A DNA stretch of 25,050 nt from a virus. Of the stretch, positions 311 to 2,052 are shown one piece after another. Made by a program: the position numbers and the translations under genes. Positions within the stretch are counted from its first letter, which is position 1. Each line of letters starts with the position of its first letter. The notes below the pieces were generated by a model. The model was not told the DNA's origin and ran no database searches. It saw nothing but the letters and a program-made list of their open reading frames with translations. The stretch lies in IMG/VR virus record IMGVR_UViG_3300009184_000197, positions 1 through 25,050 of that record; one strand, written 5' to 3'.

Positions 311-540
311 TATCTGCATCCCCATCTTTTTCTGGCAGCTTTGCCTCTTTCACCTGTCCAACTTTTAGAACGAGCACAAAAAGATTTGTGTCTAGGTCCT
401 GACTTAGTTGGTGCTTTTAAATTACTTCCTGTTGCTCTGTTTGTCTTTGCACGACCTTTTGCAGTCAGACCACCACCAGCCTTGACAGACAACTTCTCGC
501 CTCTGCCAACAGAGAGATTAGGAGACTTCTTTCTAGCCAT
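310..540 (-). CDS. DUF6321-like small basic phage protein, 76 aa
   Basis: The protein begins MARKKSPNLSVGRGEKLSVK and continues with GGGLTAKGRAKTNRATGSNL and a GPRHKSFCARSKSW segment. This pattern matches my memory of the DUF6321 family, a conserved small phage protein of unknown function. It is very rich in Lys, Arg and Gly and has two Cys, so nucleic-acid or protein binding is plausible but unproven. The start chosen is the ATG at 540, whose A is also the last base of the endolysin TGA stop (TGATG). A TTG one codon upstream would add one residue and is less likely. It ends in TAATG with the next small gene, so it is probably translated by reinitiation within the lysis-end operon. Confidence 0.7.
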   Translation of the reverse strand: MARKKSPNLSVGRGEKLSVKAGGGLTAKGRAKTNRATGSNLKAPTKSGPRHKSFCARSKSWTGERGKAARKRWGCR

Positions 541-878
541 CAAACATTCCTCTCAAAATGTGGACAGTCAACCAAAGATTTAAAGTTACCACCCCATCTG
601 TTTTTAGGATACAACTGTTCCCAAAAAAACCCAAGAGGTTGAAGAATTTTTTTATCCCAAATAATCTGTCCGTCTTTGAAGAAGTTTAAATCCATAGCGC
701 AGCGTTTTAAATGGATGCTATCCATTGTTTTGCTTCTGCCTGTTTTAACGTAAATAGCTTGCTGTTCGGGAGTTCTAGCCAATTCACCGCCTGTAACGAC
801 AAAACCTTCATTAGTTGCGTGTTCAATTAACAGACAAATGTCTAATAAAAATGCCGCCTGTTCTTTCATTAAGCTCAT
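540..878 (-). CDS. Endolysin, M15 family zinc peptidase (L,D / D,D-endopeptidase type)
   Basis: The 112-residue protein looks like a compact single-domain M15 peptidase (VanY/T5 endolysin type), which cuts peptide cross-links of peptidoglycan to release progeny. The zinc-ligand pattern is visible: SIHLKRCAMDLN gives His56 and Asp63, and DCPHFE gives the second His at 107. An early GGELARTPEQQ segment (about 30-40) precedes them, as in M15 proteins. Cys60 and Cys105 lie next to the active-site motifs. No signal peptide or wall-binding domain is visible, so export must depend on a holin. The start ATG overlaps the TGA of the upstream holin gene in an ATGA junction. Holin-endolysin order supports the assignment. 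The exact bond cleaved cannot be read from the sequence. Confidence 0.85.
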   Translation of the reverse strand: MSLMKEQAAFLLDICLLIEHATNEGFVVTGGELARTPEQQAIYVKTGRSKTMDSIHLKRCAMDLNFFKDGQIIWDKKILQPLGFFWEQLYPKNRWGGNFKSLVDCPHFERNV

Positions 879-1387
879 TTTTTACTCCTCATTTCAGCCA
901 GTTTTTCAATGGTTCTGCCACCAAAATAAGCACCCATGATGAGCATACCCCACTGACCCAACAAATTAACATAGGCTTCATTTGCGTTTAACCCAAAAGC
1001 GGACATCATGCTGAACAGGAAATAGCCCGTAAAGATGGCTACAAGGCTCATAGGGCGTATATTTTTGGATAGCCAAGAGTCAGATGCCATGTCTGCTTCC
1101 CAGCGTCCTGTGACGTTGTTTTCTTCGCTAACCATTGCGCCAGCTACAACCTTCATTTCTTCTAATTCCATCTTGGCTTTTTCAACACCCAGCTCAAGCA
1201 ACCGTTCTTCATGGTCGTATTGGAGTTGACGCAGTTTTTCCACCTCGTCAGAGCTTGGGTTGTCGCTAATCTTGACACCCAGTTTTTCTTCTACTACTTG
1301 TTTGCCTTTTGCTTGAATGGCAGAGGACAATAATCCTAAACCGTTTTGGGCAAGTGTTCCTAAAAGGGATGCAACAATAGGTATCAT
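875..1387 (-). CDS. Holin of the gene-transfer-agent 3-TM type
   Basis: This 170-residue protein has a hydrophobic/amphipathic N-terminus (about residues 3-24), a charged helical middle (about 45-90) with many Glu and Lys, then WLSKNIRP followed by two membrane segments at about 113-131 and 140-157 and a basic tail. That order, with the W-x-x-K-N-x-R-P motif just before the paired membrane helices, is typical of the holin family described for gene transfer agents and many phages. It would form pores in the inner membrane that let the adjacent endolysin reach the wall. It overlaps the endolysin start (ATGA) and its own start overlaps the stop of the split gene before it (ATGA), so all three are probably coupled. 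Confidence 0.75.
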   Translation of the reverse strand: MIPIVASLLGTLAQNGLGLLSSAIQAKGKQVVEEKLGVKISDNPSSDEVEKLRQLQYDHEERLLELGVEKAKMELEEMKVVAGAMVSEENNVTGRWEADMASDSWLSKNIRPMSLVAIFTGYFLFSMMSAFGLNANEAYVNLLGQWGMLIMGAYFGGRTIEKLAEMRSKK

Positions 1388-2039
1388 TTAATGTCCTTTA
1401 CGCAATAAGCAGGGATGTTCCCTGTACTCTGATATTCCACCCAACACTCTTTTGTTCGTTTGTCAGTAATCCAGCGTTTTTCAAATTCTTGACGGGTAAA
1501 TCTATCTTTTTTCTTATCCTGTGCTTCATTGTAAATGTAATACATGAGTCCAGCATAAGCCACAGATAGAGCCAAAACCCCTGCCAACACAGTAATTCTG
1601 ATTTGCCATCTATGCCAAAACTGTTGTCTGCGCTTGATAGCTTCTTGTTCTTTTTTTTTGCGTAGGCTTCTTCTGCGTTTTTCTCACGAGTAAGTCTTGC
1701 AAATTCAGCCTCATACCTGTTCCACATCTGGTTAAAAGATGAATCTGCCTCGTAGATTAAAAACTGCCTCATATCAGCAGCCTGACGCTCTAGCTCAATT
1801 TGTTTAAAGACAGTATCTAATGCCTGTGCTTTTAATGATTTTGTTTTTGGCGGGTTCTTTTTTTCTTTTTCCGCTATGTCTTTGACCTGTTCGTGAGCAT
1901 CAAAAAATTTACCTATAGCTCCACCAATCTCAGACGCAATGCTTGAGACATCCTTGCCCGTTGCTTTAACTTCCTTGTATAAGGCTACCCCCTGTTTAAT
2001 TGCCGCAAGAGCACCCAGTGCAATTGAAAAAGGCTCGAT
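1384..2039 (-). CDS. Split gene: coiled-coil protein with C-terminal membrane segment, joined by a -1 frameshift
   Basis: Two overlapping open frames make one sensible protein. From about 2039 the first frame gives EPFSIALGALAAIKQ, then a helical, charged region including FDAHEQVKDIAEKEK and a probable coiled coil (LERQAADMRQF, WNRYEAEFARLTREKN), up to the A9 run at 1651-1659. A -1 slip there continues as KKKEQEAIKRRQQFWHRW and a membrane helix at about residues 149-170 (ITVLAGVLALSVAYAGLMYY), then a charged tail with two Cys. The fused length is 218 residues; unslipped reading stops at 1398. The second-frame stop forms an ATGA junction with the holin start, which supports it as the native end. 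AGGAG at 2046-2050 precedes ATC at 2039 (6-base spacing) or ATT at 2042 (3-base); no ATG, GTG or TTG occurs in frame before 1772. It may be a pseudogene. Function unknown; it is next to the lysis genes. Confidence 0.6.
1650..1656 (-). promoter_or_regulatory. Candidate -1 slippery heptamer A-AAA-AAG
   Basis: Read on the minus strand, the zero frame is GCA-AAA-AAA-AAG, which ends in the heptamer A-AAA-AAG, the motif used for -1 frameshifting in Escherichia coli dnaX. Slipping here moves translation from the coiled-coil frame into the frame that encodes the membrane segment and ends at the holin start. I see only a weak possible downstream stem (GCTATC pairing with GATGGC) and no convincing upstream Shine-Dalgarno-like stimulator. 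A one-base deletion in the A run, real or from assembly, would look the same. Confidence 0.45.
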
Positions 2040-2052
2040 AATTAACTCCTAA

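Follow-up and report, generated by a model that had tools for sequence, protein, structure and literature searches.

A split gene at the head of a phage lysis cassette and its probable expression by programmed -1 frameshifting

In tailed phages, most of what is known of conserved programmed frameshifting concerns tail-assembly genes, in which the chaperone pair G/GT is produced as two proteins in a ratio set by a -1 shift at a conserved position. Comparable events are described elsewhere. The tau and gamma products of dnaX depend on the heptamer A-AAA-AAG, and dnaX orthologues use either the ribosomal or the polymerase route (PMC3711429). An A run in tssM of C. rodentium and Y. pseudotuberculosis leads to a membrane protein of two lengths (PMC4256274), and in MS2 ribosomes that shift frame in the coat gene end near the start of the lysis gene (PMC10885494; references in PMC5009743). 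A search of titles and abstracts in the open-access literature, which does not prove absence, returned no case of programmed frameshifting associated with lysis or a holin, and the word holin is absent from the PRFect paper.

The gene analysed here belongs to an IMG/VR virus record of 25,050 bases (the window, meaning this whole stretch), in which the genes lie on the minus strand. It shares with dnaX the heptamer A-AAA-AAG in the same frame, and one group of its relatives (clade A, below) reads GCA-AAA-AAG-C, in some sequences with a predicted downstream stem-loop. Unlike in dnaX, the shifted product would be the longer, membrane-anchored one and the window has A9G with no clear stem; no Shine-Dalgarno-like element was recognised at the dnaX spacing. 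As with G/GT, two products would be made in a ratio by a -1 shift of conserved position, but the gene is a different one, it is located in a lysis cassette and its trans-frame part contains a membrane helix. The resemblance to TssM is in the A run and the two length variants of a membrane protein, with the differences that the run is A9 rather than A11, the gene belongs to a phage and a ribosomal contribution is likely. In MS2 the shift only delivers ribosomes, whereas here the trans-frame product is itself conserved.

Gene organisation and the lysis cassette

A preliminary description had read two overlapping frames of the window as one gene joined by a -1 shift. Its coordinates, frames and lengths agree to the base with the window sequence, in which the following features were placed:

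2039..1384, minus strand: split gene, two frames joined at a slippery A run
1398..2039, minus strand: zero-frame ORF of 213 residues, in which a conserved helical domain at the N-terminus precedes a non-conserved tail of ~83 residues
1650..1661, minus strand: slippery site GCA AAA AAA AAG (A9G, with A-AAA-AAG inside), -1 shift
1384..1683, minus strand: -1-frame ORF with basic coil, membrane helix and C-terminal tail, its TGA overlapping the holin ATG
1531..1596, minus strand: membrane helix ITVLAGVLALSVAYAGLMYYIY, in the -1 frame
1387..1530, minus strand: putative periplasmic tail with conserved ECWxxYxxxGxxPxYC, a similar motif being present in L156, L157, L190, L240 and clade C
875..1387, minus strand: holin gene, second in the cassette (phrog_3427, E 3.6e-14)
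540..878, minus strand: M15 peptidase-type endolysin (PF13539)

The zero frame is open from the codon at 2039 through the slip site and stops at 1400-1398, while the -1 frame has no stop between 1683 and the TGA at 1386-1384. This TGA and the holin ATG (1387-1385) overlap as ATGA at 1387-1384, as the preliminary description had noted. The heptamer is in the correct zero-frame phase for a -1 shift of the X-XXY-YYZ class, and the joined (trans-frame) protein has 218 residues. No other A/T run in the window reaches nine, which makes the A9 run the longest. However, 1.3 runs of this length are expected by chance under a first-order Markov model of the window, so the run alone is no proof and the case rests on comparison; its position, frame and conservation in relatives are what count.

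The split gene heads a compact cassette of holin-like gene and M15 endolysin. The distance from the -1 stop to the next start was measured in the window and in 11 split relatives and was between -1 and +11 nt in all 12, the zero-frame stop being 13-196 nt upstream of the next gene's ATG. An exception is L185, in which the next ORF lies 91 nt on; by eye, that ORF (MEVMAALSAVNTAIKVVKATVSTCQNLESLGPC...) resembles a second helical gene and is possibly a paralogue. In the window and in L054 the split gene is followed by a phrog_3427 holin gene; the L054 holin is weakly related to phrog_1544, the group (unknown function) to which the next gene belongs in the other loci. After this gene comes one for an M15 peptidase endolysin, both in the window and in 8/8 loci tested. 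This arrangement bears on whether the gene encodes a tail-assembly chaperone that shifts frame in the usual manner of G/GT, a reading that can practically be dismissed: although this is a phage gene with a -1 shift at a slippery site, and two of 19 relatives gave weak phrog_3792 matches (E 0.0013), it is positioned between the structural genes and the holin and endolysin rather than ahead of a tape-measure gene, its trans-frame part is a membrane helix, and Pfam lends no support.

Homology of the two frames and distribution of the split

Searches with the zero-frame N-terminal domain identified 52 IMG/VR relatives at ~56-62% identity. All 52 of these nearest relatives are single-frame proteins, 179 residues long, in which a membrane helix follows the domain, and their genes have no A run. 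A search from the holin brought together the neighbouring genes, and with single-frame proteins found there the joined window protein aligns over ~170 residues, across the junction. Direct searches found no relatives of the -1 frame because the C-terminus diverges fast, a difficulty that was solved with a profile of the C-terminus built from four single-frame relatives (L156, L157, L190 and L240). In hmmsearch this profile matched the -1 frame with an E-value of 4.5e-23, extending to the shared ECWxxYxxxGxxPxYC-type tail, and nothing else in the window. This indicates that the -1 frame is the native C-terminus of the gene.

Among named phages, a DNA-level search gave no match and a protein search only one distant relative, present in two records. 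The family is absent from the phages with the closest terminase found (MW202753, 79%; MW202825, 72%). Just before its holin, MW202753.1 has two overlapping small ORFs (L244:23272-23807), the second in the -1 frame and with a membrane helix; neither matched the family profiles. An exact search found no second copy of the window's junction DNA, and no other contig of the window's species was found.

The gene of a further contig, L054, is split at the same point, with the sequence GCA AAA AAG C. Its N-terminal domain retrieved 22 contigs (L134-L155, its own included), all with A-AAA-AAG and the helix in the -1 frame, and a profile scan added four with the same heptamer (L175, L179, L180 and L181), giving clade A (26 contigs). 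The same scan added L185 and L186, which have GAA AAA AAG (A7G), and clade C, with CAA AAA AAA AGG (A9). The conserved N-terminal domain was found in 225 locus records, and the gene is split in 66 of the 194 with a near-complete domain; these 194 are not all independent, as some contigs were fetched by several searches and the window was counted twice. Clustering at 95% identity gave 61 clusters, of which 17 have the split, always -1 and never +1, and always at the same point.

A phylogenetic tree separated the 17 split clusters into four positions, namely clade A, L185, clade C and the window, and a single clade of split loci was rejected (p-AU 2e-47). Clade C is sister to a group that holds the window together with 29 single-frame clusters, the window itself being on a long branch whose exact place is unsure. 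The window's A9 may go back to an ancestor shared with clade C or be of independent origin; counting changes on the tree does not distinguish gain from loss. The preliminary description had proposed an alignment of homologues, taking conservation of the A run and the split as favourable and single-frame homologues without a slippery sequence as refuting. The comparison gave both outcomes, with split and A run kept in other branches and the nearest relatives in a single frame without an A run. As the split is kept under selection in those other branches, the single-frame nearest relatives do not refute the shift. One single-frame clade (L002-L053) has another small membrane gene (MATxKNAKPxxRQ...IPPP...), whose start lies in the -1 frame and overlaps the 3' end of the family gene, so that the same stretch codes in two frames.

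Selection on the slip site and mode of slippage

Codon use at the junction differs from that in the rest of the gene. The slip codons GCA AAA AAG are identical in 10/10 clade A sequences, whereas a single codon is kept in only 11 of 72 invariant-residue columns (Met and Trp excluded). Similarly, CAA AAA AAA AGG is identical in 8/8 clade C sequences, against 9 of 68 such columns. The slip codons thus never vary while ~85% of the other invariant-residue codons do, and both AAA and AAG are used in most other invariant lysine columns. Substitutions 3' of the site fall mostly at the third position of the -1 frame; third, first and second positions have, for example, 18/6/2 and 24/5/5 changes. When split relatives are compared in pairs, conservation is higher in the -1 protein than in the zero-frame tail. 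The 213-residue zero-frame ORF is present as first described, but the different hydrophobic tail attributed to it does not hold as a conserved feature, such tails being less alike than the -1 frame. Homology across the junction and conservation of the site and split support the original proposal of two frames of one gene joined by a -1 shift.

A separate small gene in the -1 frame, with an internal start and no joined protein, is highly improbable on this evidence. Overlapping genes are common in phages, and the small membrane gene of the L002 clade, which begins in the -1 frame over the family gene end, offers a parallel. However, the sole canonical start in the -1 frame ahead of the helix core, GTG at 1590, is not preceded by a Shine-Dalgarno sequence, consistent with the earlier remark that the second frame has no ribosome site of its own. 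In addition, the profile match covers the basic coil upstream of this GTG, both parts form one protein in the single-frame relatives, and an internal start would not need invariant slip codons.

The length of the run was surveyed in clade C by two pattern scans that allowed nine to eleven A's. A9 was present in 18 of 19 contigs, A10 in one and A11 in none. The A10 contig (L240, also L246, IMGVR_UViG_3300006108_000480) has the frames joined in its DNA, is otherwise close to L228, and may be a natural variant or an error. An indel could similarly account for the window if its A9 results from misassembly of a genuine, single-frame A10, or from a recent inactivating mutation in the phage. This is improbable, even though the nearest relatives (52 loci, 56-62% identity) and the A10 contig of clade C are single-frame, homopolymers are a typical place for such errors and there is no replicate contig of the window. 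The sister clade C keeps A9 and the split in 18/19 contigs from different samples, clade A is split at A6G, which is not an error-prone run, and the window's -1 frame is otherwise intact to the ATGA overlap. We conclude that the family almost certainly uses programmed -1 frameshifting, and that such a shift operates in the window's gene with a probability of roughly 0.8, an indel in this one contig being the main rival reading.

Folding of the 54 bases after the site was compared with synonymous shuffles. Of 13 clade A sequences, seven have a predicted stem-loop after the heptamer, with z from -2.3 to -3.1; the test is noisy, a single-frame control, L157, having scored z -4.4. No unusual folding was detected in clade A members L054, L135, L146, L175, L179 and L180; the stems predicted in different sub-clades pair in different registers, so that no conserved structure is claimed, and there was no Rfam match. 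Folding is weak or ordinary in clade C and in the window (z -1.8 for the latter), and several A9 sites have no stem. The doubt first expressed about a stimulatory stem is thus justified for the window, while part of clade A has a predicted stem-loop.

A run of about nine or more A's, the length expected for programmed transcriptional realignment, is present in the window and clade C, with shorter runs in clade A (A6) and in L185 and L186 (A7). A-AAA-AAG is among the most efficient frameshift motifs in E. coli (PMC4066793), so a ribosomal -1 shift fits clade A, L185 and L186. The A9 of the window and clade C is compatible with slippage of either the ribosome or the polymerase, and transcription as well as translation may be the step at which the frame changes there. 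Programmed transcriptional slippage alone, in which the polymerase inserts an A at A9 and no ribosomal shift takes place, is a sub-case of the preferred reading with the same products, and the confidences in the two overlap. It is somewhat unlikely. It would suit the A9 runs, mostly without a stem, in the window and clade C, the TssM poly-A (A11), from which a membrane protein of two lengths is made (PMC4256274), and the finding that bacterial polymerase needs long A runs and T7-type polymerase much shorter ones (PMC6260861). Against it, clade A, L185 and L186 have A6G or A7G and a strong ribosomal heptamer at the same place, and the window too contains A-AAA-AAG in the correct frame.

Start codons, protein products and their possible role

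The start of the gene is also unusual, with two features in the window:

2046..2050, minus strand: Shine-Dalgarno AGGAG; AGGAG with 6-nt spacing is also found in L193, L198 and L243
2037..2039, minus strand: non-canonical start ATC (AUC), aligned with the start column of relatives (AUU, GTG, AUG or AUA)

The ATC at 2039 is 6 nt downstream of AGGAG (2050-2046), and no in-frame ATG, GTG or TTG lies upstream of it. ATT occupies the first-residue column (xDP/xEP) in 99 locus records (24 clusters), none of which has an in-frame ATG, GTG or TTG; the column holds ATA in eight records, ATC in the window and L096 clusters, and GTG or ATG elsewhere. Overall, 111 of 194 locus records (28 of 61 clusters) have an AUU, AUA or AUC start and no canonical in-frame start. 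Examples are L002-L053, L075, L129 and L243 (AUU), L205 and L238 (AUA) and L096 (AUC). In those inspected, a Shine-Dalgarno-like stretch precedes these starts. Stop-codon readthrough was considered as a source of the AUU starts and rejected, as upstream genes and frames vary among loci. The infC gene starts with ATT in E. coli and with ATC in Streptomyces, and such starts are repressed by IF3 (PMC5472188); the family would be a large natural set of phage starts of this IF3-discriminated type. In the deposited phage genome MW202462.1 (L162:4001), a distant relative is annotated from 4028, and GTG 4001 aligns with the family start, so the annotation is probably 27 bases short. Because of the frequent AUU start and the change of frame, gene callers will mis-start or split the gene.

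AlphaFold2 applied to the naturally fused L240 (pLDDT 87.7, pTM 0.58) gave a model of three helices followed by a 90-residue helix that includes the membrane segment and then a short tail. Confident Foldseek matches were limited to uncharacterised proteins of uncultured tailed phages. Matches to the PDB, some of them to syntaxin Habc bundles, were not significant (E ~0.6 or more), so no function is claimed from the fold, and Pfam gave no match of note for the family. The N-terminal domain weakly matches the phrog_32327 profile (E 1.8e-4 for the window; 8/19 relatives match), a group of unknown function for which neither a frameshift nor a start-codon feature is on record. By the positive-inside rule, the basic residues ahead of the helix suggest a cytoplasmic N-terminal domain.

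From these comparisons we infer two products in some ratio and a slipping process that yields them; very probably, both soluble and membrane-anchored forms of one protein are made. Most initiations would lead to the zero-frame product, which would be soluble and contain the conserved N-terminal helical bundle. A fraction would slip back one base at A9G, by the ribosome at A-AAA-AAG, by RNA polymerase adding one A, or by both, and would give the 218-residue product, in which the same N-terminal domain would continue into a basic coil, a single membrane helix and a short tail in the periplasm, and which would end on the holin start. One gene at the head of the holin/endolysin cassette would in this way supply soluble and inner-membrane-tethered forms in a set ratio. 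Shifted ribosomes would end within a few bases of the next start, which makes coupling to the holin possible. A role in lysis timing or holin control is what we infer from gene position alone, most likely through control of the dosage or timing of a membrane protein that acts together with the holin. A more speculative and rather doubtful extension is that the first gene of the cassette is under two translational checkpoints, initiation at AUU, AUC or AUA (IF3-discriminated) and the -1 slip, through which lysis timing would read the state of the translation machinery; the slip would both choose between the soluble and the membrane-tethered form and deliver ribosomes to the holin start.

The frameshift proposed here sits in the lysis cassette of an uncharacterised family and occurs in several separate lineages, which between them use two kinds of slippery site at the same homologous position. 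The family is therefore a natural comparison of ribosomal with polymerase slippage, and of gain and loss by a single A (A9 versus A10). If confirmed, the shift would give these phages a means to set the ratio of soluble to membrane-anchored protein beside the holin.
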